From NCBI RefSeq assembly GCF_004571065.1, contig NZ_SPQN01000005.1, forward strand, positions 1 through 64,000: a stretch of DNA of 64,000 nucleotides. The letters are read 5' to 3'. The position numbers were made by a program, and so were the translations under genes. The stretch's first letter is position 1; every line of letters starts with the position of its first letter. Below, in pieces: positions 1 to 54,020 of the stretch. The notes under the pieces were generated by a model. That model did not search any database. It saw only the letters and a program-made list of their open reading frames with translations, and had not been told where the DNA came from. Source of the DNA: Geodermatophilus sp. DF01-2 (lineage in GTDB: Bacteria; Actinomycetota; Actinomycetes; Mycobacteriales; Geodermatophilaceae).

Positions 1-294
1 GATCTCGCGCGGGCCGTGCTCGGCACCCGGCTGCGCCCGCTGCTCGGCCGGACGACGGCGATCGGCCGCCACGACCTGACCGCCGCGCTCGCGGGCCGGT
101 TCGCCGAGCACGTGCACCGGCTGGTGTCCGCGCTGGCCGATCCGGCGGCGGTGCCGGCCGCCGTGGCCACCGCCCGCAGCTGGGGTGCCACCTCCGGCGT
201 CGACCTCGCCACCGGCATGGCATCCGCGCTGGCCCGGCTGCTGCGCCGACCGGATGCCCCCTCGAACCCCAGACCCCGAACACAGGAGGAGCGC
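1..294 (+). CDS. DUF2877 domain protein (AllH/YlbF-like), C-terminal part, joined in frame to FdrA
   Basis: The reading frame is open from the window edge. It ends in a helical stretch and a glycine-rich motif (GATSGVDLATGMASAL) like the C-terminus of DUF2877 proteins, the family of E. coli YlbF/AllH. In E. coli this protein works with FdrA (AllF) and YlbE (AllG) as an oxamate carbamoyltransferase. The 5' end lies outside the window. There is no stop codon before the FdrA start at 295: the frame runs through a Pro/Arg-rich linker (about 15 residues) into FdrA. Either DUF2877 and FdrA are one polypeptide, or FdrA also restarts at its own Shine-Dalgarno site. The DUF2877 assignment rests on motif resemblance plus context. 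Confidence 0.6.
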
Positions 295-1803
295 ATGAGC
301 TCACCCGACACCGAGACGCTGCAGGCCACGGTCTTCCCCCGCCTGTACCGGGACTCGGTCGCCCTGATGGCGCTCGCGTCGAGCATCGAGAAGCGGGAGG
401 GGGTGCTCCGCGCCGGAGCGGTGATGGCCACCCCGGGCAACCTGGAGATCCTGGGCCGCTCGGAGATGCTTCCGCTCGACCTGACCGCCGCCCCCGACGA
501 CCTGGTGCTCGTCGTCCGGGCTCAGGACGAGCAGACGGCGAACGAGGCCCTGGAGGCCGCCACCGCCGGCCTCACCGCCACCGAGCAGAGCGGCGGCGCC
601 CCGAGAGAAGAGGTCGCCCCGCAGACGATGCGGGAGGGGCTGGCCGCGGCAGCGGACGCGACGCTCGTCACCGTCTCGACCCCGGGCCCCTACGCCCCGG
701 CCGTTGCGGAGCAGGCCCTTCGCCGCGGCCTGCACGTCTTCTGCTTCTCCGACAACGTGCCGCTGGCCGACGAGGTGCGGCTCAAGCGGCTGGCGGTCGA
801 CCGGCAGCTGCTGCTCATGGGGCCGGACTGCGGCACGGCGATCCTCGACGGCGTTCCGCTGGGCTTCGCCAACGTCGTGCGCCCCGGACCGGTCGCGATC
901 GTCGCCGCCTCGGGTACGGGCGCCCAGGAGGTGTCCTGCCTGCTGGACGACGCCGGCACGGGCATCTCCCAGCTGATCGGCGTCGGCGGCCGGGACCTGT
1001 CGGCGGAGGTCGGCGGCCTCATGACCGAGCTGGCGCTGGACCTGGTCGCGGCGGACGACGCCAGCGAGATCGTCGTCCTGGTGTCCAAGCCGCCGGCCCC
1101 CGAGGTCGCGGACCGGCTGCTGGCCCGGCTCGCCGGGCTCGGCAAGCCGGTGGTGGCCTGCCTGCTCGGCGCGGAGGACGCGGATGGGCCGGTCGTCGTG
1201 CGCGGCACCCTGGAGGGCGGCGCCGCCGCGGCGGCCGCGCTCGCCGGCACGCCTCTCGCCCTCCAGGACCCGGGCACGGAGCCGGCGGACGCGGCGCCGC
1301 TGCCCGGGCGGATCCTCGGGCTCTACACCGGGGGGACCCTCGCCTCGGAGACGAAGGTGGTGCTCGGCCGCGCCTGCCTGTCGGCCGAGGTGCTCGACCT
1401 CGGGGACGACGAGTACACCGCCGGCCGCCCCCATCCGATGATCGACCCGTCGGCGCGGGCCGACCGGGTCGCCCGGGCCGGCGCCGACCCCGACGTCGCG
1501 CTGGTGCTGGTGGACCTCGTCCTCGGCCACGGCGCCAGTCCCGACCCGGCCACCCCGCTGGCCGAGGCGGTGCGCGAGGCCCGGGCCAGCGCCGCCGCGG
1601 ACGGCCGCGAGCTCGTCGTCGCCGGGTCCGTGTGCGGCACCGCCGCCGACCCGCAGGACATCGAGACGCAGCGGCGCATCCTGCAGGAGGCCGGCGTCGT
1701 CCTGCACCCGTCGAACGCCGCCGCGGCCCGGTACGCGGTCGCCCGTGCGACCGGCTCCCTGCCCACCGACCCCACGCTGCTGCACCGTCAGGAGACCGCA
1801 TGA
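295..1803 (+). CDS. fdrA: FdrA/AllF-like acyl-CoA-synthetase-fold protein (oxamate carbamoyltransferase subunit)
   Basis: About 502 residues from ATG 295, which has an AGGAGG at 284-289, five bases upstream. FdrA proteins have succinyl-CoA-synthetase-like nucleotide/CoA-binding folds; here the Gly-rich loop IVAASGTGAQE (near residue 200) and GVGGRDLSAEVGG are visible. Known for the family: FdrA with YlbE and YlbF forms the E. coli oxamate carbamoyltransferase (AllFGH), which splits oxalurate into oxamate and carbamoyl phosphate late in anaerobic allantoin use. The next two genes are the YlbE homologue and carbamate kinase, the same set as in E. coli, which supports the role. Its stop overlaps the next start as ATGA. 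The frame is also open upstream into the DUF2877 domain, so a fused protein is possible. Confidence 0.85.
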   Translation: MSSPDTETLQATVFPRLYRDSVALMALASSIEKREGVLRAGAVMATPGNLEILGRSEMLPLDLTAAPDDLVLVVRAQDEQTANEALEAATAGLTATEQSGGAPREEVAPQTMREGLAAAADATLVTVSTPGPYAPAVAEQALRRGLHVFCFSDNVPLADEVRLKRLAVDRQLLLMGPDCGTAILDGVPLGFANVVRPGPVAIVAASGTGAQEVSCLLDDAGTGISQLIGVGGRDLSAEVGGLMTELALDLVAADDASEIVVLVSKPPAPEVADRLLARLAGLGKPVVACLLGAEDADGPVVVRGTLEGGAAAAAALAGTPLALQDPGTEPADAAPLPGRILGLYTGGTLASETKVVLGRACLSAEVLDLGDDEYTAGRPHPMIDPSARADRVARAGADPDVALVLVDLVLGHGASPDPATPLAEAVREARASAAADGRELVVAGSVCGTAADPQDIETQRRILQEAGVVLHPSNAAAARYAVARATGSLPTDPTLLHRQETA

Positions 1804-3191
1804 TCACCGGAGGTGTCCGGATTCTCAACGCCGGGCTGCCGCTCATCGTCGAGGGCGTGCCCGCCGCCGACGTCGTCCAGCTCGACTGGCGCCCGCCGGC
1901 GTTCGGCGACGCCGACCTGGCCCGCCTGGCGGCCGGCCTCGACGACGAGGTGACCGAGGAGGCCAACGCCCGCGCCGTCGCCGCCGTCCACGCGGTCCGC
2001 CCGCGGCTGGTGCGGGTCCGCCCGGCCCGCGAGGTCGTGCCGGACATCGCCGAGGGGCGGACCCTGCTGCACGCCGGCCCACCGATCGAGGTGGCGCGCA
2101 TGTGCGGCCCGATGCTGGGCGCCCTCGTCGGGGCGGCGCTGTTCGAGGGCTGGGCGTCGGACGCCGAGGACGCCGAGGCGCAGCTGCGCTCCGGGCGGAT
2201 CGCCGTCTCCCCCTGCCACCACTCCGGCGCGGTCGGGCCGATGGCCGGCGTGCTGGCGCCGTCCATGCCGGTGTTCGTCGTGGAGGACGGCGGACGCCAA
2301 GCCTTCGCCTCTCTCAACGAGGGGCTGGGCAAGGTACTGCGCTTCGGCGCCTTCGACGACGAGGTGCTCACCCGCCTGGCGTGGATGCGCGACGTCCTCG
2401 GCCCGGTCCTGGACGAAGCCCTCCGCGGCCGCGAGCCCGTCGACGTGACGGCGCTGTTCGGCCAGGCGCTGGCGATGGGCGACGAGGGGCACAACCGCAA
2501 CGTCGCGGCGACGAGCCTGCTGACCCGTCGCCTGGCCCCCGTCCTCGCGGGGCTGCCGCGCGGCATCGAGGTGCTCGAGTTCCTCGCGGGCAACGACCAC
2601 TTCGCGCTCAACCTGTCGATGGCCGGGGCCAAGCTCGCCCTCGACGCGGCGGCCGGCATCGAGCACTCGACGCTGGTCACCGCCATGGCTCGCAACGGCG
2701 TCGAGTTCGGGCTCCGGGTGGCCGGCACCGGCGAGCGGTGGTTCAGCGCGCCCGTCGGCCCGGCGGACGGCCTGTTCTTCCCCGGCTACGGCATCGAGGA
2801 CGCCAACCCCGACCTCGGCGACTCCGCGATCACCGAGACCCTCGGCATCGGCGGCTTCGCGATGGCCGCCTCGCCGGCGATCACCCGGTTCGTCGGGGGA
2901 ACCCCGGACGACGCCCTCGCCACCACCCGGTCGATGCGGCGGATCACCCTCGCGCCGCACCCGGCGTTTCCGCTGCCCCCGCTGAACTTCGCCGGCAGCC
3001 CGAGCGGCATCGACGTGCTCCGGGTGCTCGACACCGGCGTCCTGCCCGTCATCAACACCGGCATCGCGCACAAGCAGGCAGGTGTCGGCCAGATCGGCGC
3101 GGGCATCGTCGACGCGCCCGCGGAGGTCTTCGGGCAGGCCGTCGTCGCGCTGTCCGAGGCGCGGCACGCACGAGGGGACGGCGCCCGGTGA
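1800..3191 (+). CDS. ylbE: DUF1116 protein, YlbE/AllG-like oxamate carbamoyltransferase subunit
   Basis: 463 residues; ATG 1800 overlaps the fdrA stop (ATGA), so translation is probably coupled. The sequence is a typical full-length DUF1116 protein, with blocks such as SPCHHSGAVGPMAG (near 145), MGDEGHNRN (near 230) and NTGIAHKQAGVGQIGAG near the C-terminus. E. coli YlbE (AllG) is the partner of FdrA in oxalurate/oxamate carbamoyl transfer. The product carbamoyl phosphate would be used by the carbamate kinase encoded next. The start is fixed by the overlap and by the conserved N-terminus. The exact substrate in this organism is not shown by sequence; oxalurate is inferred from E. coli. Confidence 0.85.
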   Translation: MITGGVRILNAGLPLIVEGVPAADVVQLDWRPPAFGDADLARLAAGLDDEVTEEANARAVAAVHAVRPRLVRVRPAREVVPDIAEGRTLLHAGPPIEVARMCGPMLGALVGAALFEGWASDAEDAEAQLRSGRIAVSPCHHSGAVGPMAGVLAPSMPVFVVEDGGRQAFASLNEGLGKVLRFGAFDDEVLTRLAWMRDVLGPVLDEALRGREPVDVTALFGQALAMGDEGHNRNVAATSLLTRRLAPVLAGLPRGIEVLEFLAGNDHFALNLSMAGAKLALDAAAGIEHSTLVTAMARNGVEFGLRVAGTGERWFSAPVGPADGLFFPGYGIEDANPDLGDSAITETLGIGGFAMAASPAITRFVGGTPDDALATTRSMRRITLAPHPAFPLPPLNFAGSPSGIDVLRVLDTGVLPVINTGIAHKQAGVGQIGAGIVDAPAEVFGQAVVALSEARHARGDGAR

Positions 3192-4180
3192 ACCGCACCG
3201 CACTCGTGGCCATCGGCGGCAACGCCCTGGTGCTCGACGGCGAGCCGGGCTCGGTTCCGCTGCAGCAGGAGCGGGCCGCGGCCTTCGCCGGCCAGGTCGC
3301 CGACCTCGTGGCAGACGGCTGGACGGTGCTGGTGAGCCACGGCAACGGGCCCCAGGTCGGCTTCATCCTGCGCCGGGGCGAGCTGGTGGCCCCGGAGGCC
3401 GGGATCGAGGGGCTGCCCGACCTGCCGCTGTGGCTCGCCGTCGCCGACTCCCAGGGCGGGATCGGACACCTGCTCGCGGTGGCGATCGACACGGCGCTGG
3501 AGCGCCGCGGCCTGACCGCGCGCGCCGTCGGGGTGCTCACCCACGCGGAGATCGATCCGGCCGACCCGGCCTTCGCTGCACCGGCCAAGCCCATCGGATC
3601 GGCCATGACCGCCGACGTCGCGCGGCTGCGCGCGTCACAGGAAGGCTGGTCGGTCACCGAGACCTCACCCGGCAGCTTCCGCCGCGTGGTGGCCAGCCCC
3701 CGTCCACGGCGGATCCTGGAGGCCGACCAGATCCGCGGGCTGGCGACCCTCGGTGCCGTCGTCATCGCCGCCGGCGGCGGGGGCATCCCCGTCGTCCGGA
3801 CCGAACAGGGGTGGCAGAGCGTGGACGCCGTCATCGACAAGGACCGCGCGTCCGCCGTCCTGGCCGCCACCGTCGACGTCGACACGCTGGTGCTCGTGAC
3901 CGGCGTGGACCAGGTGTTCGTCGGCTTCGGCACGCCCGGCCAGCGCGCCCTGAGCGAGGTGAGCGCGACCGAGATGCGTGGGCACCTCGAGGCCGGCGAG
4001 TTCCCGCCGGGATCGATGGGCCCGAAGGTCGAGTCCGCGCTGCAGTTCCTGTCCGACGGCGGGCACCGCGCCGTCATCACGTCCCTGCCGCGGCTGCGCG
4101 AGGCCCTCGCCGGCGAGGCCGGGACGCACATCACCACCTGCGGCGGGGAGCCCGCCGCGTCCCCGGGAGCCGCCCGGTGA
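3188..4180 (+). CDS. arcC: Carbamate kinase
   Basis: 330 residues from GTG 3188, overlapping the ylbE stop (GTGA). It carries the amino-acid-kinase signatures of carbamate kinase: AIGGNAL at the N-terminus, SHGNGPQVGF (near 50) and a C-terminal GSMGPKVESAL block. The enzyme moves phosphate from carbamoyl phosphate to ADP, giving ATP, CO2 and ammonia. Behind fdrA-ylbE it is the counterpart of E. coli YbcF/AllK, turning carbamoyl phosphate from ureide breakdown into energy and ammonium. No arginine deiminase or ornithine carbamoyltransferase gene is nearby, so the fermentative arginine pathway is a less likely context. Confidence 0.95.
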   Translation: MNRTALVAIGGNALVLDGEPGSVPLQQERAAAFAGQVADLVADGWTVLVSHGNGPQVGFILRRGELVAPEAGIEGLPDLPLWLAVADSQGGIGHLLAVAIDTALERRGLTARAVGVLTHAEIDPADPAFAAPAKPIGSAMTADVARLRASQEGWSVTETSPGSFRRVVASPRPRRILEADQIRGLATLGAVVIAAGGGGIPVVRTEQGWQSVDAVIDKDRASAVLAATVDVDTLVLVTGVDQVFVGFGTPGQRALSEVSATEMRGHLEAGEFPPGSMGPKVESALQFLSDGGHRAVITSLPRLREALAGEAGTHITTCGGEPAASPGAAR

Positions 4181-4197: not shown

Positions 4198-4890
4198 ATG
4201 ATCGAGGTTCAGGCCGAACCGCAGCCGTTCGTGTTCGATCCGGGGCACGTCGCCCTGCTGTGCATCGACTTCCAGCGGGACTTCCTCGAAACCGGCGGCT
4301 TCGGGGAGTCGCTGGGCAACGACGTCGCCCGGCTGCGCAACGCCATCGCGCCGACCCAGGCGGTGCTCTCGGCCTTCCGGGAGCGCGGCTGGACGGTCAT
4401 CCACACCCGGGAGGGGCACCGCCCCGACCTGACCGACCTGTTCCCCGCCAAGCGCGACCGCGGCAACCCGTCGCTGCGGATCGGCGAGGAGGGCCCGATG
4501 GGCCGGTTGCTCGTCCGGGGCTCGGCCGGGCACGAGATCGTGCCGGAGCTGGCCCCGCAGCCGGGTGAGGTGGTGCTGGACAAGCCGGGGAAGGGCTCGT
4601 TCTACGCCACCGACCTGGAGACGATCCTGCGGGCCCGCGGCATCACATCCCTCGTGGTCGCCGGCGTGACCACGGAGGTGTGCGTGCAGTCGACGGTGCG
4701 GGAGGCCAACGACCGCGGCTTCGAGTCCCTGGTCCTGTCCGACTGCACCGGATCGTACTTCCCCGAGTTCCACGCCTCGGCGCTGGCGATGTTCGCCGCC
4801 CAGGGCGGCATCGTCGGCTGGGTCGGCACGTCGGCCGACCTGCTGGACGCGCTCGAGCAGTCCCCCGTACGGACGGAGAAGGCGGAATGA
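4198..4890 (+). CDS. Isochorismatase-family cysteine hydrolase, biuret-amidohydrolase-like
   Basis: 230 residues from ATG 4198, with AGGAGA just upstream. It has the family's catalytic triad: Asp24 (in CIDFQRDF), Lys129 (DKPGKGSF) and Cys162 (TTEVCVQST). The stretches IHTREGHRPDL, DKPGKGSF and REANDRGFE closely resemble the biuret amidohydrolase BiuH of Rhizobium, which cuts biuret to allophanate and ammonia; ureidoacrylate hydrolase RutB is a more distant relative. In this operon the natural substrate could be biuret, a ureide or oxamate. The downstream permease carries an allophanate-hydrolase-type domain, which favours biuret/allophanate chemistry, but this is inference. The stop overlaps the permease start (ATGA). 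Confidence 0.85.
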   Translation: MIEVQAEPQPFVFDPGHVALLCIDFQRDFLETGGFGESLGNDVARLRNAIAPTQAVLSAFRERGWTVIHTREGHRPDLTDLFPAKRDRGNPSLRIGEEGPMGRLLVRGSAGHEIVPELAPQPGEVVLDKPGKGSFYATDLETILRARGITSLVVAGVTTEVCVQSTVREANDRGFESLVLSDCTGSYFPEFHASALAMFAAQGGIVGWVGTSADLLDALEQSPVRTEKAE

Positions 4891-6842
4891 GCGAGAAGCG
4901 CGGAGCGACGGCGACCAGCGCCGCCGCGCCCAGGTGGTGGGTCAAGGGCGACTGGAACGGCCTGTTCGGCCTCGGCACGAACGTGCTTCTGAACGTCATC
5001 GTGCTGACCGGGCTGTGCCTGGCCGTGGTGCAGATCCCGGCCGACACGGTGTACGGGCGCATCCTGCCCGCGCTGGGCATCGCCTTGCCGCTGGGCAACA
5101 TCTGGTACGCGTTCCTGGCGCGGCGGCTGGCCCGGCGCGAGGGGCGCAGCGACGTGACCGCGCTGCCCTACGGGCCGAGCGTGCCGCACACGTTCATCGT
5201 GGTCTTCGTCGTCATGCTGCCGGTGCTGCTGGCCACCGGGGACGCCCTCGCCGCGTGGCGGGCGGGCCTGGCCTGGGCGTTCATCATCGGCGTCATCGTG
5301 CTGCTCGGCGCGGTGTTCGGTCCGTGGATCCGCCGGTGGACGCCGCGGGCGGCGCTGCTCGGCGCGCTCGCCGGTATCTCGATCACCTTCATCTCGATGA
5401 GCCCGGCCGCACAGATGTGGCAGGCGCCGTGGATCGCGTTCATCGCCCTGGCGTTCATCCTGGTCGGCTGGCTGGGCGACCGTAAGATGCCGTTCGACGT
5501 CCCGGTGGGCCTGCTCGCCGTCCTGGTCGCCACGGCGGTGGCCTGGATCGGCGTGCTGGCCGGCTGGTCGGGAATCCTGCAGCCGAGTGCGGTGGCCGAG
5601 TCGATCTCCGAGCTCGCGCTGCGGCTGCCGTTCCCGTCCGGGGACGTGCTGACCGGGCTGCAGGACATCGCTCCGCTGCTGGCCTCGGCCATCCCCCTCG
5701 GCATCTACAACTTCACCGAGGGCATGACCAACGTCGAGTCGGCGGCCGCGGCTGGCGATCGCTACTCGGTGCGTCAGGTGCTCTCGGCCGACGGGCTGGG
5801 CGCGGTGATCGGTTCCTTCCTGGGCTCGCCGTTCCCGCCGGCGGTCTACATCGGCCACCCGGGCTGGAAGCAGGTCGGCGGGCGCATCGGCTACTCGCTG
5901 GTCACCGGGATCGTGGTCGCCGTCGTCTGCTTCACCGGGCTGGTCGGTACCTTCCTGGCGGTCTTCCCGATGCAGGCCCTGGTGCCTGTGCTCCTCTACA
6001 TCGGCCTGGTCATCGGTGCGCAGGCGTTCAACGTCAGCGCGCGCCGGTACGCCCCGGCCATCGTGCTCGCGATGTTGCCGAGCCTGGCCGAGTGGGCCAC
6101 CGGGCAGATCGACAACGCGCTCGCCGCCGCGGGCACCGATGCCGCCACCGTCGGCGTCGCCACCCTGGTGGACAACGGCGTGGTCTACGACGGGCTCAAG
6201 CTGCTGGGCCAGGGGGCCGTGCTCGTCGGCATCGTGCTCGGGGCCATCGCCTGCTTCGTGATCGACCGCAGGATGTACGCGGCCGCGGTCACCGCGGCGG
6301 TCGGGGCGGCGTTGTCGTTCATCGGCCTGATCAACGCCTACGAGGTGGGCTTCAACGCTTCGCCGGCGGTCACCCTCGGGTACGCCTTCCTCGCCCTGAT
6401 CCTCGCCTTCTTCGGCTGGCGGGAGCGCAACGAGGACGGCGGCGTGCTGGACGACGAGCTGCTCTTCGTCAACGGCACCCTCATGCGGGGCCTGGAGCTG
6501 CACGGCAACCTGTCCGGCGCGGAGCTCCTGGAGGAGACCGCGACCGCGCCCGAGTACCGGGTGCACACCATCGGCGACGTGCACCCGGGCATGTACAAGG
6601 TCAACGGCGGCGAGCAGGGGGCGTCGATCTCCGGTGAGCTGTACCAGGTGCCGCTCGACGTGCTGCTGAAGGTCATCGAAGGCGAGCCGCCAGGTCTCTA
6701 CCGGGGTCCGGTCGAGCTGATCGACGGTCGCGTGGTCCCGGGCATTCTCTACGCCCGGGAGATGGCCGAGGCGCACCCGGACATCACCGAGCACGGTGGT
6801 TGGCGGCAGTACCGCGCGACGGTGGCGCCCTCGGCGCACTGA
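4887..6842 (+). CDS. NCS2/AzgA-like permease fused to a C-terminal allophanate-hydrolase C-domain-like (GGCT-fold) module
   Basis: 651 residues from ATG 4887. Residues 1 to about 530 are a polytopic membrane protein with many hydrophobic helices, resembling the nucleobase/xanthine-uracil type permeases (ALPYGPSVPHTF motif, GIYNFTEGMTNVESA near 275-290). Residues about 535-651 are soluble and look like the C-terminal domain of allophanate hydrolases and related GGCT-like proteins: LLFVNGTLMRGLELHGNL, PGMYKVNGGEQGASISGELY, then GLYRGPVELIDGRVVPGILY and GGWRQYRA. The domain probably lies in the cytoplasm, so uptake and a ureide-handling module are joined in one chain. It is the last gene of the ATGA-coupled operon. 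The transported compound is unknown; biuret, allantoin-like ureides or a triazine/pyrimidine product are all possible. Confidence 0.8.
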   Translation: MSEKRGATATSAAAPRWWVKGDWNGLFGLGTNVLLNVIVLTGLCLAVVQIPADTVYGRILPALGIALPLGNIWYAFLARRLARREGRSDVTALPYGPSVPHTFIVVFVVMLPVLLATGDALAAWRAGLAWAFIIGVIVLLGAVFGPWIRRWTPRAALLGALAGISITFISMSPAAQMWQAPWIAFIALAFILVGWLGDRKMPFDVPVGLLAVLVATAVAWIGVLAGWSGILQPSAVAESISELALRLPFPSGDVLTGLQDIAPLLASAIPLGIYNFTEGMTNVESAAAAGDRYSVRQVLSADGLGAVIGSFLGSPFPPAVYIGHPGWKQVGGRIGYSLVTGIVVAVVCFTGLVGTFLAVFPMQALVPVLLYIGLVIGAQAFNVSARRYAPAIVLAMLPSLAEWATGQIDNALAAAGTDAATVGVATLVDNGVVYDGLKLLGQGAVLVGIVLGAIACFVIDRRMYAAAVTAAVGAALSFIGLINAYEVGFNASPAVTLGYAFLALILAFFGWRERNEDGGVLDDELLFVNGTLMRGLELHGNLSGAELLEETATAPEYRVHTIGDVHPGMYKVNGGEQGASISGELYQVPLDVLLKVIEGEPPGLYRGPVELIDGRVVPGILYAREMAEAHPDITEHGGWRQYRATVAPSAH

Positions 6843-6969
6843 TCTCTTCCTACGCAGAGATGCCGTCCACCCCGATGGCGATGTCAGCGGGGTGGACGCG
6901 CCCGCAGGTGTCGAGCCGCGGCACCACGACCTGAGCGAGGGACGCCGCCGGGTCGGGCACCATGGCCGA

Positions 6970-7230
6970 GCCCTGGGAGTACGCCTCGACCGATCTGGTG
7001 TATCTGCCGGTGTACGCCCGTCCGCTCGACCAGGTGGAGATCTCTTCTCCATCCTCCGGTCCAGCGGAAGTGGTCAATCGTGGCGACGTCGCCGACCTCG
7101 ACCAGTTGGCCGGGCGGCTGGTGGCCTTCCAGGACCGCTCCAACGCCACCGCCGAGACCTTCGAATGGCACTTCGGCCGCGAGTCCCTCGGCCGCCTCCT
7201 CGAAGGACTTATCGATCAGGAGCCGCTGGC
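6970..7230 (+). pseudogene. IS630-family transposase remnant (C-terminal part)
   Basis: An open stretch reads LVYLPVYARPLDQVEI, then RLVAFQDRSNATAETFEWHFGRESL. This matches the end of IS630-type transposases (VxxPVHASWLNQVEI ... NATAxPFxWxFT) with degenerate positions. No N-terminal DDE part and no inverted repeats are seen. It is a decayed scar downstream of the permease operon. Confidence 0.6.
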
Positions 7231-7412
7231 CGCAGGACCCCGACGTTTCAACGGCAGGTTCCACAAGGCGACCAGCGACCGGCGGACGACGGGCCGAGCC
7301 GGCTGCGGGCGGCGGATCTCATGGCACGCCGGGCCGACGCCTCGTGCCGGTCAGGGGCGCAGGAGGCGCGCTCGGTCCCGACGGCGACCGCAGCGGTGCG
7401 GGAGCCGGTCTA

Positions 7413-7527
7413 GACGTGTGCGAGGTGCGACTTCACGGTGGCGTGGCTGAGGCAGACCCGCGGGGCCACAAGCACCTCACCGTCGTGGTCGACCACGACA
7501 CCGGACGACTGGTCTGGGCCGCACCGG
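7413..7527 (+). pseudogene. ISL3-family transposase remnant
   Basis: A short in-frame piece, RGHKHLTVVVDHDTGRLVWAAP, is typical of the catalytic core of ISL3-type transposases. It stops abruptly at the end of the chemoreceptor gene on the other strand (7528). Nothing else of the element remains, so two different IS families left fragments side by side here. Confidence 0.55.
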
Positions 7528-9081
7528 TCATCGCTGGAAGGCCGCCACCGCCTGCTGCAACTCGTGCGACATCCGGACCAGCTCCGTGGCGGCGGTCTGC
7601 ATGTCGCCCACTCCGGCGTGGGTCTGCTGCGCCCCGTGAGCGACCTCGGCGACGGTGGTGGCGATCGACCGGCTCATCTCGTTGGTGGTGGCGGTCTGCT
7701 CCTCCACCGCGCTGGCGATCGTCGTCTGGTAGTCGTTGATCTGGGCGATGACCGTGGTGACACCGGCGATCGCCTGAACGGCGCTGGCGGTGTCGCCCTG
7801 GATGGCCTCGACCCGCTGGGCGATGTCCTCGGTCGCCTTCGCGGTCTCCTGCGCCAGCTCCTTGACCTCGTTGGCGACGACGGCGAAGCCCTTGCCGGCC
7901 TCGCCGGCGCGCGCGGCCTCGATGGTCGCGTTGAGAGCGAGGAGATTGGTCTGCTCCGCGATCGACGTGATCACCTTGACCACGTTGCCGATCTCGACCG
8001 AGGACTCGCCGAGCCGCGCCACGGTACCGTTCGCGTCCTCGGCGGCCGTGACGGCGCTGCCGGCCACGCGGGCGGCCTCGGCGGCGTTGTGGGCGATCTC
8101 CTTGATCGACGCGCCCATCTGCTCGGCGCCGGCGGCCACGGCCTCGATGCCGCTGCTGACCTCCGCCGCGGCGGTCGTGACGCTCTGCGCCTGCTCGGTC
8201 GACCGCTCGGCGGTGTCGGCGATCGTCTCGCCCGTCGCGGACAGCGTCCGAGCCGCGCTCTCCAGCAGCTGCGAGGCGTTCCCGACCTCGCCCACCACGG
8301 CGGAGACTCGGTCGAGCGTCCCGTTCAGCGCGCCGCCGAGGCGGTCCAGCTCGTTCCGGCTGTCCGGCACGTCGAACCGCCGGCGCAGGTCCCCGGAGGA
8401 GAAGACGTCGGTCATGTCCCGCAGCGGACGGGTGATGCTGCGCGAGACCAGCAGGGACAGCGCGACGATCGCGGCGAGCACCGGGAGCGCCCACAGCGCC
8501 ATGTCCAGCAGCTCGGCCCGGAAGGCACCGTCGAGGTCGGCGACGTAGATGCCGGAGCCGAGAACCCACTCCCACGGCTCGTACCCCGCGACGAAGGAGA
8601 TCTTCGGCTGCGGGTCCTCCTCACCGGGCTTTGGCCACATGTACTCGACGAAGCCGCTGCCGTCGCGCTCGACGACCTCCACCATCTCCACGAACAGCTT
8701 CTTGCCCGTGGGGTCCTCGTTCTGCCTCAGGTTTGTGCCATCCAGCTCGGGCCTGATCGGATGCATGACCATCGCCGGCTGCATGTCGTTGATCCAGAAG
8801 TACTCCTCGCCGGCGTACCGCAACTGGCCGATCACCGTCATGGCGGCCGCCTGCGCCTCGGCCTCGGTTATCTGCCCGCCGGCTTCGAGCTCGCCGTAGT
8901 AGGCGACGACGCCGAGGGCCGCCTCGACGGCCGCCCGGGCCTTGTTGCGCTGCTCCTCCTCGATCGTGGAGCGCACGTTGAGCGCGCCGATGACCGCGAT
9001 GGCCGCCATTCCGATCGTCGCCGCCAGCACCAGCACCAGCAGGCGCGTGCTGATCCTCACCCCGCGGAATCGCCCCACCAT
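7528..9081 (-). CDS. Methyl-accepting chemotaxis protein with single Cache (sCache_2) sensor
   Basis: 517 residues from ATG 9081, with GGGAG about eight bases upstream. The open frame extends 64 codons further but that part is low-complexity and carries the promoter. Order: N-terminal membrane helix (about 10-35), periplasmic sCache_2 domain with the usual EEYFWINDM and WVLGSGIYV motifs (about 40-200), second membrane helix, HAMP, then the cytoplasmic signalling hairpin with the conserved tip [19 protein letters not shown]. Such receptors bind small organic acids or amino acids outside the cell and control CheA. No che genes are in the window. A sigma-28-type promoter lies 39 bases upstream, so it is probably co-expressed with flagellar genes. 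Confidence 0.95.
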
Positions 9082-9119
9082 GTCCAGCTCCCAGCGCCAT
9101 GGACGAATTGCCGCGGGAC

Positions 9120-9146
9120 GTATCGGCGGAATTCGGACGGTGTTGA
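9120..9146 (-). promoter_or_regulatory. Sigma-28 (FliA/WhiG)-type promoter of the chemoreceptor gene
   Basis: On the minus strand TCAA is followed by exactly 15 bases and GCCGATAC, against the flagellar sigma consensus TAAA-N15-GCCGATAA. It sits just upstream of the ATG at 9081. The same layout precedes the GGDEF-EAL gene at 26552. Confidence 0.65.
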
Positions 9147-9375
9147 GTTGAAACCCCCGTCCCATGCCGGGACGGCGCCTCGTCCGCCCGCCCGCCGCGC
9201 GGTGATCGTCGGCCCGACCCCTCGGGTCCCCGGCTGGCGCACCATCCTGAGGCGGGGTGGCGGAACGGGCCACCGGACTCTACGGTGCGCACGCTCGACT
9301 TCTGTCCGGTACGGATTCGATCGAGAGGAGGATGGGAAGCCGGGCCGTGCAGCGGCACCGACGTCCTGGTGACCG

Positions 9376-10500
9376 ATGCGCTATTCCCGGCGGTGGCTTC
9401 GGCCCGGTCACTTGGGGACGGAGGCGGAACAGGCGACGTTCCGGACCCTCCATTCCGCTTCCCTCACCGCGCCCGAGCTCCGCGAGGGCCTGACGGCCGG
9501 CTCCGCCGAACGCGCGATCAGGCACCTGCGCGACCTGCTCGGGGTGCCCGCCGTCGCCCTCACCGACACCGTGTCGATGCTGGCCTGGGACGGTCGGTTC
9601 GGGCACCACGAGCCGCAGACACCGGCTCTCGCCGCCTTCGTGGTCGGATCGGGCAACACCGTGGTGCGCGACCGCAAGGACTTTCCCTGCGCCGACGCCG
9701 GCTGCGCACTGCGGCAGGTCGTGGTCAGCCCGCTGGTGGTCGAGGACCGGGTGGTCGGCACCCTGCAGGCGTTCACCTCCCACGCCTCCGCCGGGCTCGT
9801 CCGGGCCGCCGGCGAGGTCGCCCGATGGGTGTCGGGGAACCTGGAGCTGGCCGAGCTCGACGCCTCACGCACCCGGCTGATGGAGGCCGAGGTCCGGGCG
9901 CTGCGGGCGCAGATCAGCCCGCACTTCATCTACAACTCGCTGACCGCGATCGCGTCGTTCGTGCGCACCGATCCCGAGCGAGCTCGCGAGCTGCTGCTGG
10001 AGTTCGCCGACTTCACCCGGTACTCCTTCAGCCGGCACGGCGAGTACACGACGCTGGCGGAGGAGTTGCGGTCGATCGAGCGGTATCTCGTGTTGGAGAA
10101 GGCCCGGTTCGGCGATCGGCTCCAGGTCACGCTCCGGGTGGCGCAGGAAGTGCTGCCGGCCGCTGTGCCGTTCCTCTGCCTCCAGCCGCTGGTGGAGAAC
10201 GCCGTCCGGCACGGCCTGGAACGCAAGCCGGGAACCGGAACGGTGACCATCATCGCCGCCGACCAGGGCGGCGAGTGCCTGATCTCGGTGGAGGACGACG
10301 GCGTCGGGGAGGACCCGGAGAAGGTGCGACGGGCACTCGCCGGCGACGCCTCCGTCGACTCGGTGGGGCTGGGCAACGTCGACGCCCGGCTGCGCACCGC
10401 CTTCGGTGACGACTACGGTCTGGTCGTCGAGACCGGCCCCGGGGCCGGCACGAAGGTTATCGTGCGAGTTCCGAAGTTCGCCCCCGGAGTGCGCCCGTGA
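9376..10500 (+). CDS. LytS/YehU-type sensor histidine kinase with GAF domain
   Basis: 374 residues from ATG 9376. An N-terminal GAF-like domain (about 40-160) with a CADAGCAL cysteine pair is followed by a His_kinase domain with phospho-acceptor His183 (QISPHFIYNSL) and a C-terminal ATPase domain (LVENAVRHG, DDGVG, VGLGN). There is no clear membrane segment, so it is probably soluble. It overlaps the LytTR regulator by GTGA, forming a two-component pair. The pair lies directly upstream of acetate-type symporters, so it likely controls organic-acid uptake, much as LytS/LytTR systems sense pyruvate in other bacteria. The Cys pair could be a redox or metal site, but that is speculative. Confidence 0.9.
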   Translation: MRYSRRWLRPGHLGTEAEQATFRTLHSASLTAPELREGLTAGSAERAIRHLRDLLGVPAVALTDTVSMLAWDGRFGHHEPQTPALAAFVVGSGNTVVRDRKDFPCADAGCALRQVVVSPLVVEDRVVGTLQAFTSHASAGLVRAAGEVARWVSGNLELAELDASRTRLMEAEVRALRAQISPHFIYNSLTAIASFVRTDPERARELLLEFADFTRYSFSRHGEYTTLAEELRSIERYLVLEKARFGDRLQVTLRVAQEVLPAAVPFLCLQPLVENAVRHGLERKPGTGTVTIIAADQGGECLISVEDDGVGEDPEKVRRALAGDASVDSVGLGNVDARLRTAFGDDYGLVVETGPGAGTKVIVRVPKFAPGVRP

Positions 10501-11240
10501 CCGCCGACCGGTTGATCGTCCTCGTGGTGGACGACGAACGCCCCGCCCTCGACGAGCTGCGCTGGCTGCTCGAACGGGACGGGCGGATCGGGACCGTGGT
10601 GACCAGCGACTCGGCGACCGAGGCGCTGCGTGTCCTCCAGGAGCGCAGCGTCGACGCGGTCTTCCTCGACATCCGGATGCCCGGGCTCACCGGCGTCGAC
10701 CTGGCCCGGGTGCTGTCCCGATTCAGGACGCCGCCTCCGGTGGTCTTCGTCACCGCCTACGACGACCACGCCGTGGAGGCGTTCGAGCTGGGCGCCGTTG
10801 ACTACGTCCTCAAGCCGGTCCGCGACGACCGGCTGGCCGAGGCGGTCCGCCGGGTGGTCGGCGCGCGGGGCGGCGGTTCCGCACCGGCGGACGACGACAT
10901 CGCGGTCGAGCTGGGCGGGGTGACCAGGTTCGTGCCGCGGTCCAGCGTCCGCTACGTCGAGGCGCAGGGCGACTACGCCCGGCTGCACACCCCATCGGGC
11001 AGCCACCTGGTCCGGGTGCCGCTGACCGCGCTGGAGGAGGACTGGAAGGACGCCGGGTTCGTCCGGATCCACCGGTCGCTGCTGGTCGCGCTCCAGCACG
11101 TGGAGGAGGTGCGGATGGACGCCGGCCGGTGCACGGTGGTCGTCGGCGGCATCGAGCTCGGTGTCAGCCGTCGGCACACGCGGGAACTCCGGGACCTCCT
11201 GGTGCGGCGGGCGCGTCCGGGTCCCTCGGGCAGGGGGTGA
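10497..11240 (+). CDS. LytTR-family response regulator
   Basis: 247 residues; GTG 10497 overlaps the kinase stop. The receiver domain (1-120) has the acidic pair VVDDE, phospho-acceptor Asp58 (FLDIRMPG), and the Thr/Lys switch residues (FVTAYDDH, LKPVRDD). The LytTR DNA-binding domain (about 140-240) shows YVEAQGDYARLHT and FVRIHRSLLVAL. It probably activates the symporter genes just downstream. Its target sites cannot be assigned from one locus; the intergenic stretches before 11790 and 13638 are the places to look. Confidence 0.93.
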   Translation: MTADRLIVLVVDDERPALDELRWLLERDGRIGTVVTSDSATEALRVLQERSVDAVFLDIRMPGLTGVDLARVLSRFRTPPPVVFVTAYDDHAVEAFELGAVDYVLKPVRDDRLAEAVRRVVGARGGGSAPADDDIAVELGGVTRFVPRSSVRYVEAQGDYARLHTPSGSHLVRVPLTALEEDWKDAGFVRIHRSLLVALQHVEEVRMDAGRCTVVVGGIELGVSRRHTRELRDLLVRRARPGPSGRG

Positions 11241-11243
11241 GCG

Positions 11244-11618
11244 ATGTCGGACGCCACGCCCCGCCGGGTGCGCGTCACCAGTCCGCGTACCGGGGCTACC
11301 CGCGCCCAGCGGGTCCCGGCCGCCAGGGAGATCGAGGCCCAGACGCTGCTCGGCGAGGTCTACATGACCTCGCTGCTGCGCTCCCAACTGCGCCTGGCGC
11401 TGCTCGCGCTGGCCGCCGTGGCCGTGCTCGTCGGCGGGATCCCCTTGGTCTTCTGGCTCCTGCCGGACCTCTCCGCGGTCGAGGTGCTCGCCGTGCCGCT
11501 CCCGTGGTTGCTGCTGGCGTTCGCCGTCTATCCGCTCCTCTTCGCCACCGGCTGGCTCTACGTGCGCGCCGCCGAACGCAATGAGCGGGACTTCACCGAC
11601 GTGCTGGACCGCTCGTGA
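11244..11618 (+). CDS. Small two-helix membrane protein paired with a sodium:solute symporter
   Basis: 124 residues from ATG 11244, four bases after the response-regulator stop and with GGGGG/GAGCG purines upstream. It has a charged cytoplasmic N-terminus (about 55 residues) and two hydrophobic segments (about 48-70 and 80-105). It precedes a sodium:solute symporter, the same position that DUF485 proteins (such as the one at 13638) hold before ActP, so it is probably a divergent helper subunit. Its stop codon is the first base set of a 75-bp direct repeat that separates it from the symporter. Confidence 0.75.
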   Translation: MSDATPRRVRVTSPRTGATRAQRVPAAREIEAQTLLGEVYMTSLLRSQLRLALLALAAVAVLVGGIPLVFWLLPDLSAVEVLAVPLPWLLLAFAVYPLLFATGWLYVRAAERNERDFTDVLDRS

Positions 11619-11772
11619 CCGAGCTTGCGAGGTCACGCATGGGCACAGCACCCTCGGGCACGGGGTCGAAGCGCCAGCGAGGAGAGCTCGTGACCGAGCT
11701 TGCGAGGTCACGCATGGGCACAGCACCCTCGGGCACGGGGTCGACGAGCGCCAGCGAGGAGAGCTCGTGACC
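11611..11772 (+). repeat. Tandem 75/77-bp direct repeat with internal inverted repeat
   Basis: Two near-identical copies start at 11611 and 11686, and a partial third starts at 11763 (GCTCGTGACC). Copy 2 has two extra bases. Each copy holds an inverted repeat, CGTGACC then ten bases then GGTCACG. The first copy supplies the TGA of the upstream small membrane protein. It lies between that gene and the symporter start at 11790 and could form RNA hairpins in the operon message. Confidence 0.9.
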
Positions 11773-11789
11773 GGGAGCATCGGCCGGCC

Positions 11790-13322
11790 GTGACCGCCGC
11801 CGGCTACAGCATCATCGGCGTCACGTGCGTCTTCGTGGCCACGTTGGCGATCGGCGCCTACGGGTGGCGGTTCTCCCGCACCACCAGTGACTTCTTCGTC
11901 GCCTCCCGCACGGTGCGGCCTGGGCTCAACGCGTCGGCGATCGGCGGAGAGTACCTCTCCGCAGCCTCCTTCCTCGGCGTCGCCGGCCTGGTGCTCGCGT
12001 TCGGCACGGAGATGCTGTGGTACCCGGTCGGCTGGACGGCGGGCTACCTCGTTCTGCTGGTGCTCGTCGCCGCGCCGCTGCGCCGCTCCGGCGCCTACAC
12101 GCTGCCCGACTTCGCCGAGAGCCGGCTGGAGTCGCTCGGCGTGCGCCGGTTCTCCTCACTGCTCGTCGTGGCGATCGGCTGGCTCTACCTGATGCCGCAG
12201 TTCCAGGGCGCCGGCCTGGCGTTGGCCACCACGACCGGAACCGGGCCCTGGCTGGGCGGCGTGCTGGTCGCGGCGGTGGTGCTGGTCAACGTGCTGTTCG
12301 GCGGGATGCGCAGCATCACCTTCGTACAGGCGTTCCAGTACTGGCTGAAGCTCACCGCGCTGCTGTTCCCGGTGCTGTTCATGACCGCCGTCTGGCTCGG
12401 CGACGGTGGCGTCTCGCCCGCCTCCGCCGACGTGGGAGGTCCCGACATGTCCGGAGACGAGTGGGCGTCGCCACTCGCCGGGGGGAGCGAGCACCAGCTC
12501 TACACGACGTACGCGATCATCGTTGCCACGTTCTTCGGCACGATGGGGCTTCCCCACGTGGTGGTGCGCTTCTACACCAATCCCGACGGCGCCGCGGCCC
12601 GCCGCACGACCCTCTTCGTGCTGGCTCTGCTCGGCCTCTTCTACGTGCTGCCGCCGATCTACGGCGGCCTGGGCCGGCTCTACGCCCCGGACCTGATCAG
12701 CAGCGGCCGCACCGACACCGTGGTGCTGGAACTGCCGGCGCGGATGCTGGGCGGCACGACGGGCGAACTGCTGTCTGCCCTCACCACGGCGGGGGCGTTC
12801 GCCGCGTTCCTGTCCACGTCGTCCGGGCTGACCGTCGCGGTGGCCGGTGTGCTCAGCCAGGACGTGATGGGCCGCCGATTCCGCGGCGTGCGCGCCTTCC
12901 AGGCGGCCGCCGTCATCGCCGTCGTCGTCCCGCTCGGCCTCGCGCTGCTGACCGAGGGGGTAGGTGTCGCCCGGGCCGTCGGCCTTGCCTTCGCCTTCGC
13001 CGCCTCCACGTTCTGTCCGCTGCTGGTGCTGGGCATCTGGTGGCGCCGGCTCACCGACGCCGGCGCGATCGCCGGGATGCTCGTCGGTGGCGGCGGCGCC
13101 GGCGGGGCGGTGCTGGCCACCCTGGCCGGCGTGGCACCCGACGGTTGGCCCGGCGCGCTGCTCGCCCAGCCGGCGGCCTGGACCGTTCCGCTGGCGTTCC
13201 TCACCATGACGGTGGTCTCCCTGGCCACCCCCCGGAGGGTGCCGCGGCATGCCTCTCGCACCATGGCCAGTCTGCACACTCCCGAGGCGGTGCAGCTGGA
13301 CCGTGGACCTCTGCCACGGTGA
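11790..13322 (+). CDS. Sodium:solute symporter (SSS family), acetate/monocarboxylate type
   Basis: 510 residues from GTG 11790; upstream in-frame codons belong to the repeat and were not used. The protein is a typical SSS permease, with FFVASRTVRPGLNASAIGGEYLSA split into its usual blocks (SAIGGEYLSAASFLG near 50), GLPHVVVRFYT (near 250) and LSTSSGLTVAVAGVLSQD (near 340). It resembles ActP-type cation:acetate symporters and differs from the second symporter at 14026, so the locus has two related uptake systems. It follows the LytS/LytTR pair and the small membrane protein in what looks like one operon, and probably imports acetate, pyruvate or a similar acid with Na+ or H+. Confidence 0.88.
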   Translation: MTAAGYSIIGVTCVFVATLAIGAYGWRFSRTTSDFFVASRTVRPGLNASAIGGEYLSAASFLGVAGLVLAFGTEMLWYPVGWTAGYLVLLVLVAAPLRRSGAYTLPDFAESRLESLGVRRFSSLLVVAIGWLYLMPQFQGAGLALATTTGTGPWLGGVLVAAVVLVNVLFGGMRSITFVQAFQYWLKLTALLFPVLFMTAVWLGDGGVSPASADVGGPDMSGDEWASPLAGGSEHQLYTTYAIIVATFFGTMGLPHVVVRFYTNPDGAAARRTTLFVLALLGLFYVLPPIYGGLGRLYAPDLISSGRTDTVVLELPARMLGGTTGELLSALTTAGAFAAFLSTSSGLTVAVAGVLSQDVMGRRFRGVRAFQAAAVIAVVVPLGLALLTEGVGVARAVGLAFAFAASTFCPLLVLGIWWRRLTDAGAIAGMLVGGGGAGGAVLATLAGVAPDGWPGALLAQPAAWTVPLAFLTMTVVSLATPRRVPRHASRTMASLHTPEAVQLDRGPLPR

Positions 13323-13637
13323 CCCTCGCCGCTCTGACGACGTGGGCGAGACGCACTGCCGTTGGCGCACGGCGCAGTAGAGAACCGGAGCGCCCCGACC
13401 TGCGGCCCACGACCGGCCGAGGTGCGCACCGTCATCTCATCCGAATCCGACGGTGCCGTCGCTTCGCGACCGCTCGTCCCGCAAGACCTGCCGTACGCCG
13501 ACCGCCGCTCACCGCTCAGCGCAGCGTCCGCACGTTCCCCTGCCCTCCCCGGGACGCGCTTCCTAGCGTGACAGCGCTCACAGCCGTCCACCGTTGCGTA
13601 GCAACGATCAGCCTGACTCTGACCTGGAGGCCGCACG
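13323..13637 (+). other. Intergenic region upstream of the acetate-uptake operon
   Basis: No gene is seen in these 315 bases. They hold a CRP/GlxR-like site (13567-13582) and a short perfect palindrome CGTTGC-GTA-GCAACG at 13592-13606, followed by the CTGGAGG ribosome binding site of the DUF485 gene. This is the likely promoter region of the DUF485-actP pair. Confidence 0.6.
13567..13582 (+). promoter_or_regulatory. CRP/GlxR-type operator
   Basis: CGTGA-CAGCGC-TCACA matches the consensus TGTGA-N6-TCACA at nine of ten half-site positions. It lies about 55 bases before the TTG start of the DUF485-actP operon. CRP/GlxR control of acetate genes is known in other actinobacteria; binding here is inferred from the motif. 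Confidence 0.55.
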
Positions 13638-14033
13638 TTGACCGAGATCAAGGAACGGCGTCTGCTGACGCCGGAGGAGTACCGGGAGGCGCAGGCCTCA
13701 CCGGAGTTCCAGGAGTTGAAGAAGCGGTTCCGCGCCTTCGCGTTCCCGATGACGGTGGCGTTCCTGGCCTGGTACCTGCTCTACGTCCTGCTCTCCACGT
13801 ACGCGCCCGACTTCATGGCGACCAGCGTGTTCGGCAACGTCAACGTCGGCATCCTGCTGGGCCTGGGACAGTTCGTGTCGACGTTCGTGATCACGCACCT
13901 CTACGTGGCGCACGCCGGCAAGCGGACCGACCCGATCGCCGACGAGATGCGGAATCGGCTGGAGCACCACGAGTACGCGCCCGGTACGCGGGGGACCGGC
14001 TCGTCCTTCGACCAGGGGGCGACCCGTGGGTGA
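13638..14033 (+). CDS. DUF485 membrane protein, ActP partner
   Basis: 131 residues from TTG 13638, with CTGGAGG seven bases upstream (13624-13630). It starts with a soluble segment (LTPEEYREAQASPEFQELKK), typical of DUF485, followed by two membrane helices (about 35-57 and 72-95). DUF485 proteins (YjcH in E. coli) are encoded directly before cation:acetate symporters and are thought to assist them. The coding end overlaps the actP start by eight bases, so the two are translationally coupled. Confidence 0.92.
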   Translation: MTEIKERRLLTPEEYREAQASPEFQELKKRFRAFAFPMTVAFLAWYLLYVLLSTYAPDFMATSVFGNVNVGILLGLGQFVSTFVITHLYVAHAGKRTDPIADEMRNRLEHHEYAPGTRGTGSSFDQGATRG

Positions 14034-53436: not shown

Positions 53437-54020
53437 ACCGGCTCGGTCAGCGGGTCAAGGACACGCTGTCCAACCGGATGCAGCAGCCCGGCGGGGCAGG
53501 GCAGTCGCTGACGAGTCGCGCGCTGGCCTGGGCGCAGCACGCGGCGGAGCGCAACCCGGGACTGGCGAAGCTGGCCGGCCGGATGGCGAGCCCGATGCCG
53601 CCGCCGTCCAGGACGCGTCCCGGCAGCGGGAAGGACGTCCCGCTGGGGTCGGGCAAGGGAGGCGCGATCGCGATCACCCATCCCGGTGCCGACTCCTCGG
53701 CCCGCCCCGGCACGCCCGGCGAGATCCTCTACGGCGAGGGGCCGATGGAGATCAACGTCGGGCGCGAGGCCGTCACGGTGACCGTCGTCAACACGGCGGA
53801 CCGGCCGATCACCGTGGGCTCGCACTACCACTTCGCCGAGGCCAACCCGGCACTCTCCTTCGACCGACAGGCCGCCTGGGGACGACGGCAGAACATCATC
53901 GCCGGGGGCATGACCCGCTTCGATCCCGGGTCTCGCCAGGAGATCGAACTGATCCCGTTCGCCGGGCGGCGCATCGCCGCCGGTTTCCGCGGCGAGTGCG
54001 CGGGCCCGCTCGATGGCTGA
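53433..54020 (+). CDS. ureB: Urease beta subunit with long N-terminal extension
   Basis: 195 residues from GTG 53433, overlapping ureA. The UreB core is residues about 95-195 ([62 protein letters not shown]-like [10 protein letters not shown]). The first ~90 residues are extra: basic and Pro/Ser/Gly-rich with helices ([20 protein letters not shown]). Ordinary UreB is about 100 residues. The extension may form a linker between subunits or bind nucleic acid or membrane. The reading frame is continuous and the start is set by the ureA overlap, so it is not an error of start choice. Confidence 0.93.

Follow-up and report, generated by a model that had tools for sequence, protein, structure and literature searches.

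A membrane carrier joined to an AH_C domain in a putative triuret operon of Geodermatophilus

What does an AH_C domain, of the kind known from allophanate hydrolase, do at the end of a membrane carrier? The question is raised by a reading frame of Geodermatophilus sp. DF01-2, located at positions 4887–6842 (forward strand) of a 64,000-nucleotide stretch of contig NZ_SPQN01000005.1, hereafter the window. An earlier note on this DNA described the frame as an NCS2/AzgA-like transporter followed by a domain of the allophanate hydrolase type, placed it in one operon with a biuret-hydrolase-like enzyme, and proposed substrate channelling or sensing at the membrane. Judged from the genes that the operon holds, we give a probability of about one half to the reading that it encodes a module for the uptake and phosphorolytic breakdown of triuret, in which part of the energy would be saved as ATP.

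In the proposed route, the carrier would import triuret or a close ureide. The neighbouring hydrolase, whose function is predicted from diagnostic residues, would remove one ammonia from triuret and yield 1-carboxybiuret, a reaction shown for the Herbaspirillum TrtA, whose product turns spontaneously into biuret with a half-life of about 20 min (PMC7948467). The transcarbamylase subunits AllFGH may then phosphorolyse 1-carboxybiuret to carbamoyl phosphate and allophanate. The E. coli oxamic transcarbamylase (OXTCase) carries out the reversible phosphorolysis of oxalurate to carbamoyl phosphate and oxamate, and ATP is obtained from the carbamoyl phosphate (PMC11326118); 1-carboxybiuret corresponds to oxalurate with an inserted NH. 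Carbamate kinase, by its family function, would convert carbamoyl phosphate to ATP, ammonia and CO2. In the least certain step, AH_C would act as a cytoplasmic enzyme clearing away the remaining N-carboxylated product, which is most likely allophanate, and would thereby pull the reversible transcarbamylase step forward. Its fusion to the carrier in Actinomycetota, or to carbamate kinase in another genus, may keep AH_C in step with its partners; the chemistry itself would not need the fusion.

The fused frame and its operon

The operon comprises the following features, all in the window.
1–294, + strand: 3′ end of an AllH-like gene (Pfam AllH PF11392, 40 bits, cut-off 25)
295–1803, + strand: AllF/FdrA-like subunit, oxamate-carbamoyltransferase type (Ligase_CoA and CoA_binding; NF004760 FdrA 425.5 bits, cut-off 433)
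1800–3191, + strand: AllG-like subunit (Pfam AllG PF06545, E 2.6e-85)
3188–4180, + strand: carbamate kinase (NF009007 319.8 bits, above the cut-off of 266)
4198–4890, + strand: TrtA-like putative triuret hydrolase, an isochorismatase-family cysteine hydrolase (best PDB match 6xix; TrtA-type residues)
4887–6431, + strand: carrier half of the fusion (residues 1–515), probably a distant NCS2-superfamily permease (hhalign against a NAT profile, E 8.5e-7)
6462–6815, + strand: AH_C domain of the fusion, NGTLMRG type (PF21986, E 1.1e-31 at the DNA level)

The fusion frame is intact and encodes 651 residues between an ATG at 4887, which overlaps the stop codon of the upstream gene in an ATGA, and a stop at 6840–6842. 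A Pfam search places AH_C (PF21986) on residues 526–643 with E 9.2e-31 (106.8 bits against a cut-off of 27), and the same half also exceeds the cut-off for GGACT (37 bits against 22.8). PDB entry 5c5z aligns with residues 524–643 (E 1.1e-21), and the motifs GLYRGPVELIDGRVVPG and GGWRQYRA are both present in the protein. The description of one frame holding a carrier-like half and a domain of this type is thus borne out (E 9e-31 for residues 526–643). Within its own assembly, the fusion contains the sole AH_C match. The domain comes without an amidase half: no amidase was found among the operon genes scanned by Pfam, and a query that we take to represent the AtzF-type amidase found no match in the genome at E 1e-60.

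The genes lie on the forward strand, overlapping or closely spaced, in the order AllH-like end, AllF/FdrA, AllG, carbamate kinase, cysteine hydrolase and fusion. AllFGH and carbamate kinase had not been named in the earlier note. Base 1 of the window is the contig start, and the start of the AllH-like gene lies beyond the contig end. Its frame runs stop-free into allF (window 1–295), which has a start of its own behind a purine-rich stretch; AllH and allF are separate genes in the related locus L059. The AllG and AllH models (PF06545 and PF11392) are above their cut-offs, with the FdrA model NF004760 slightly under its own. For carbamate kinase, NF009007 passes while three other NCBIfam carbamate kinase models remain under their cut-offs; the arcC model TIGR00746 scores 300.1 bits, under its cut-off of 358. 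In other genomes, the operon of most longer fused loci starts with AllH behind a divergent gene, presumably PucR, and "PucR" is the record annotation of the gene before a Peptoclostridium operon described below. The subunit families and the accompanying carbamate kinase are those of the E. coli AllFGH, the oxamic transcarbamylase (PMC11326118). The K-12 set, however, adjoins allantoin genes, whereas the window set stands beside TrtA, and the AllG identity between the two is 49%. Further along the window (7528–15645) lie a Cache-domain chemoreceptor (− strand), a histidine kinase and LytTR response regulator pair, and two SSF symporters, one of which adjoins a DUF485 gene.

The substrate of the route is suggested by the hydrolase. 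The enzyme is related to BiuH, as the earlier description implied, but by its specificity residues it is triuret-hydrolase-like, not biuret-hydrolase-like. Its best PDB matches are to TrtA (6xix, 268 bits; 6xj4, 263 bits), followed by biuret hydrolases (6xjm, 246 bits; 6azo, 209 bits). The catalytic residues D24, K129 and C162 are kept, as are F29, K132 and Q202. Of six positions that discriminate TrtA from BiuH, five are of the TrtA type (F35, N41, E160, Y187 and I205); the sixth, position 134, is Ser. The same five positions are given as distinguishing in the published comparison, in which mutation of A134 was neutral (PMC7948467). The window hydrolase accordingly shares its catalytic and five discriminating residues with TrtA of Herbaspirillum sp. 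BH-1 (PDB 6XIX) and differs from it at position 134, where Ser is the BiuH consensus and the mutation is reported neutral (PMC7948467). The BiuH model NF050097 is missed (267.7 bits against a cut-off of 370). Biuret as the substrate of the hydrolase was set aside on the discriminating residues and this score.

A scan of related loci, keeping one genome per species (80 of 104 loci), extends the picture. E160, Y187 and I205 occur together in 78 of the 97 hydrolases called in these loci and the window, the window's included; 19 of the 97 are of the BiuH type, and every locus with such a copy also has a TrtA-type one. The hydrolases of L064 and L066, merged with the kinase in gene calling, are TrtA-type by direct translation. 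A gene of the TrtA/BiuH family lies within 1.5 kilobases of the carrier on the same strand in 79/80 loci. TrtA and the carrier form the constant pair of the sampled loci, with a varying set of downstream genes. Published TrtA operons hold BiuH and AtzF (PMC7948467); the window operon holds AllFGH and carbamate kinase instead.

The family of the carrier half is less plain. A simple hydropathy scan finds 16 hydrophobic stretches in residues 1–515. In Pfam, the carrier half gave no significant match: its best (E 0.015) is to a ribosomal-protein family, under that family's cut-off, and PF00860 is absent among its matches up to E 10 (HMMER filters drop most matches above 0.1). NCBIfam matches in the fusion are confined to the AH_C part, a profile of 24 carrier relatives has no match in the PDB at E up to 10, and five relatives in plasmid records likewise match no Pfam transporter family. 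Profile–profile comparison by hhalign aligns the carrier with 23 NAT/NCS2 proteins at 91.5% probability (E 8.5e-7, 213 colinear columns) and with 10 AzgA proteins at 52.9% (E 1.4e-4, 123 colinear columns), while controls with unrelated carriers, reversed sequences and reversed profiles reach at most 1.7%. Compared as single sequences, GhxQ gives 31.8% and XanQ, UacT and YbbY just 0.1–1.2%. The NCS2/AzgA-like assignment is therefore favoured by the profile–profile alignments and not by the Pfam, NCBIfam, PDB or XanQ, UacT and YbbY comparisons. The carrier is probably a distant member of the NCS2 superfamily, its membership not proven: it resembles NCS2 permeases (NAT such as XanQ and UacT; AzgA such as GhxQ) in the colinear profile alignment, and differs from them in lacking a PF00860 match and in bearing a fused soluble domain.

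AllFGH, the downstream enzymes and competing pathways

AH_C domains with the NGT-type start occur in 25/80 of the sampled loci, and allG is present in 24 of these 25, the exception being a remnant (L081). Where allG is missing (52 loci), an AtzF-type AH_C is present in 17 and no AH_C in 34, and the remaining locus is L081; allG is accompanied by an AtzF-type AH_C in 4/80 loci. In four proteobacterial loci (L083, L085, L086 and L093), TrtA and an amidase joined to AH_C, the allophanate hydrolase layout, lie opposite in strand to AllF, AllG and carbamate kinase. Such loci fit a path from triuret to 1-carboxybiuret, by AllFGH to carbamoyl phosphate and allophanate, and on to allophanate hydrolase; the path would be complete if AllFGH yields allophanate. 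In other loci of the carrier family, the genes beside TrtA are what we take to be AtzE, AtzG and AtzH. One plasmid record is annotated with AtzE and AtzH beside TrtA. These two enzymes are described as acting on 1-carboxybiuret and its product (PMC6219798).

The same core is found in E. coli CFT073, in the order hydrolase, AllH, FdrA, AllG, carbamate kinase, AH_C, cytosine-permease-type carrier and LysR. This C_RS22505 cluster (the gene is presumably c4763) resembles the window operon in bringing together a TrtA-like hydrolase, AllHFG-like subunits, carbamate kinase, AH_C and a carrier. It differs in that AH_C is a separate gene and the carrier matches the NCS1/cytosine-permease family. Its hydrolase is TrtA-type at 6/6 discriminating residues, and its AH_C has the same sequence as PDB 5c5z in the alignment. 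Of 5426 complete E. coli genomes, 1542 contain 80% or more of the cluster length, and the probiotic strain E. coli Nissle 1917 has a cluster identical to that of CFT073 over its 7214 bases; 127 of the 1616 places matching the cluster are on plasmids. The AllG of the CFT073 module shares 66% identity with that of L145, 65% with L080, 62% with L083, 61% with L078, 57% with L079, 55% with the window, 53% with L112 and 51% with L068, and 47% with the AllG of the K-12 allantoin cluster. This divergence between AllG proteins of one species is consistent with a different substrate.

An unlikely alternative, though one with precedent, is that two pathways run in parallel from one operon: AllFGH and carbamate kinase would act on oxalurate and TrtA on triuret, both of which are urate oxidation products, and AH_C would speed the decarboxylation of the TrtA product. 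The collocation of biuH or trtA with allFGHK has been read in this way for nitrifiers (PMC12625717), the E. coli AllFGH is an oxalurate enzyme (PMC11326118), and an E. coli plasmid carrying the carrier and AllFGH without TrtA fits it as well. On the other side, AllG of the module differs, modestly, from that of K-12, and in 12/26 genomes none of the enzymes searched for would be available to act further on the TrtA product. The survey covered 26 genomes, one being the window's and the others belonging to 25 loci, L081's holding only the remnant. At E 1e-30, a second TrtA/BiuH-family member was found in 1/26; an AtzF-type amidase at E 1e-60 likewise in 1/26, AtzH in 2/26 and a second AH_C in 3/26 (23/26 without). 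In 12/26 genomes there was no second hydrolase, AtzF-type amidase, second AH_C, AtzH or urease alpha, AtzE-type amidases not having been searched genome-wide.

We consider it improbable that AH_C is instead a TrtB-like decarboxylase converting 1-carboxybiuret to biuret, with AllFGH splitting biuret to carbamoyl phosphate and urea for urease or excretion. Biuret, being N-carbamoylurea, is likewise an oxalurate analogue, and the decarboxylation in question also proceeds unaided at the half-life of about 20 min reported for carboxybiuret (PMC7948467). Urease alpha is present in 9/26 genomes, the window's included; in the 17/26 without it, half of the nitrogen would go to waste. Blastococcus capsensis gave no urease alpha match and Cellulomonas timonensis gave two. 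Two were also found in the window's genome, at window 54019–54375 and at 67710–68066 of contig C155, about 13 kilobases apart on the same contig.

AH_C as a probable pathway enzyme

In a tree of AH_C domains, 38 rows (22 carrier-fused, five split, that of E. coli and ten others) separate from 40 AtzF-type rows with support 100/99; the tree is built on 129 columns, with flags on several long branches and with part of the inner branching open. The window domain lies on the other side of this split from the AtzF C-terminal clade and begins with NGTLMRG. The earlier designation thus holds for the AH_C family, within a clade apart from AtzF's. Glu584, which we take to be the catalytic Glu of the GGCT fold, is kept in 32/32 NGT-type and 45/46 other AH_C domains. 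With the AH_C domains of allophanate hydrolase and urea amidolyase (PDB 4gyr and 4iss), the window domain shares the Pfam family and Glu584, Thr553 and Gly578, present in nearly all aligned members; it differs in the lack of an amidase half, in its NGTLMRG rather than GAHLxG-like start, and in its separate clade.

The domain also occurs free of the carrier. In three Chloroflexota loci (L079, L091 and L112) it has a gene to itself that directly follows the carrier gene, and the operon also contains AllHFG, kinase and hydrolase. Two proteobacterial metagenome-assembled genomes (MAGs; L078 and L080) have carrier, AH_C, hydrolase, AllHFG and kinase, the place of AllH in L080 being taken by an unclustered gene in the gene table. 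A stop codon lies inside the separate AH_C of L080, a Cupriavidus MAG (10112–10480), so that AH_C there may be broken or missequenced. In L091, a Chloroflexi MAG, the AllF and AllG matches fall within one called frame of 979 residues (about 5250–8150). In another genus of the taxonomic order to which the window's species belongs, locus L145 (7765–9126) has an NGTLMRG-type AH_C fused in frame to carbamate kinase. A joint match to kinase and AH_C is present in 8 of 148 genomes of this genus, L145's own among them; one of the eight has an internal stop and in another the match reaches no further than query residue 430 of 470. L146 encodes kinase and AH_C in two genes with a one-base overlap. Both L145 and L146 have TrtA, AllF, AllG, carbamate kinase and AH_C, and no relative of the window carrier was found in their 18-kilobase stretches.

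AH_C has therefore become fused on at least two occasions, each time to another partner within one pathway, and since it is separate in the five split operons and in CFT073 and kinase-fused elsewhere, its role need not depend on the carrier. That it is an enzyme of the pathway which can move between contexts is likelier than that it is a sensor specific to the carrier. The proposal of channelling or sensing at the membrane accordingly finds no support, and we regard it as very improbable that AH_C senses for or gates the carrier without being an enzyme, or that it is a device for membrane channelling. Its covalent link to the carrier, preserved within a single clade of Actinomycetota, would suit such a role; the occurrence of the subfamily beside a carrier as a separate protein, with an unrelated carrier or on carbamate kinase, and the invariance of Glu584 in the NGT-type domains, would not. 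For the related urea amidolyase, the reported data argued against allophanate channelling (PMC5770610).

The fusion itself recurs in other actinobacteria, as had been proposed for checking. Besides the window, 19 of the 80 loci (L059–L077) have the full-length join, and a further full-length copy, in G646 (L030), has an AH_C identical to that of L065. The window protein is 68–96% identical to 17 aligned full-length copies, and named records with the fusion all belong to Actinomycetota. Among 296 sampled genomes of the class, the full-length join was found in two, the window's and G646, and any match at E 0.001 in 59. In the carrier tree, a short search with SH-aLRT as its support, 21 fused rows (the window and L081 included) form one group with support 100; in the AH_C tree, the fused rows and L030 group too, on a weak branch (85/90). 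L081, from Actinotalea ferrariae, holds an N-truncated fusion (9956–11530) with no module genes around it, and no TrtA/BiuH relative was found in that genome at E 1e-30; this copy is probably a remnant. An artefact of assembly or frameshift, for which the truncated L081 copy outside the module might speak, is ruled out for practical purposes by the 19 full-length relatives in loci of other species, 17 of them aligned at the identities given; the combination named beforehand as refuting, a join confined to this genome with a frameshift nearby, does not apply.

The case against and the implications of the proposed route

A number of observations weigh against the triuret module. The reaction assigned to AH_C is a guess based on a homologous domain. 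Forming one clade, the 19 full-length fused loci do not count as independent evidence, and the genomes of L145 and L146 do hold carrier relatives elsewhere. The absences in the genome survey are soft, 14 of the 25 loci being from MAGs and AtzE not having been searched, and urea would not have to be an end product in the window's genome, which has two urease alpha matches. The window's AllG shares 49% identity with that of K-12 and 53% with that of the L112 module, hence the split between AllG kinds is modest. On a Peptoclostridium plasmid (L142, 7658–16420), two carrier paralogues surround a TrtA-like hydrolase, followed by AllHFG and carbamate kinase; no AH_C was found in this set, and in its hydrolase H and F replace E160 and Y187. 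An E. coli IncF-type conjugative plasmid (L141, 5094–11519) combines AllHFG, a 39%-identical carrier and carbamate kinase. Neither TrtA nor AH_C was found at this locus, and the carrier and AllFGH may thus serve other ureides. Furthermore, the fusion partner of an NGTLMRG-type AH_C in L147 (8058–8960) is a glyoxalase-family domain, and no module gene was found there in 18 kilobases. In L148, an amidase and a BiuH-type hydrolase lie close to an NGTVM-type AH_C, and AllG is absent.

We tentatively propose, at somewhat below even odds, that the genes represent an undescribed ATP-conserving triuret route made up of TrtA, an AllFGH that phosphorolyses 1-carboxybiuret, carbamate kinase, a new class of AH_C in stand-alone or fused form, and a carrier family absent from Pfam. 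In the open-licence literature, consulted mostly as titles and abstract openings, neither the fusion nor a triuret carrier nor a part of AllFGH in triuret breakdown was found described. A 2025 report on nitrifier contigs places trtA/biuH beside allFGHK in comammox and biuH beside allFGHK in archaeal contigs, and reads them as separate pathways (PMC12625717). If the proposed route is true, triuret hydrolysis and a phosphorolysis yielding carbamoyl phosphate would be united as one energy-saving route. It would offer a testable function for the structure-solved 5c5z and for a carrier family without a Pfam match, and a function for the second AllFGH set in more than a quarter of complete E. coli genomes. 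The triuret of human urine would then be a plausible substrate for the E. coli form of the core, which has another carrier.

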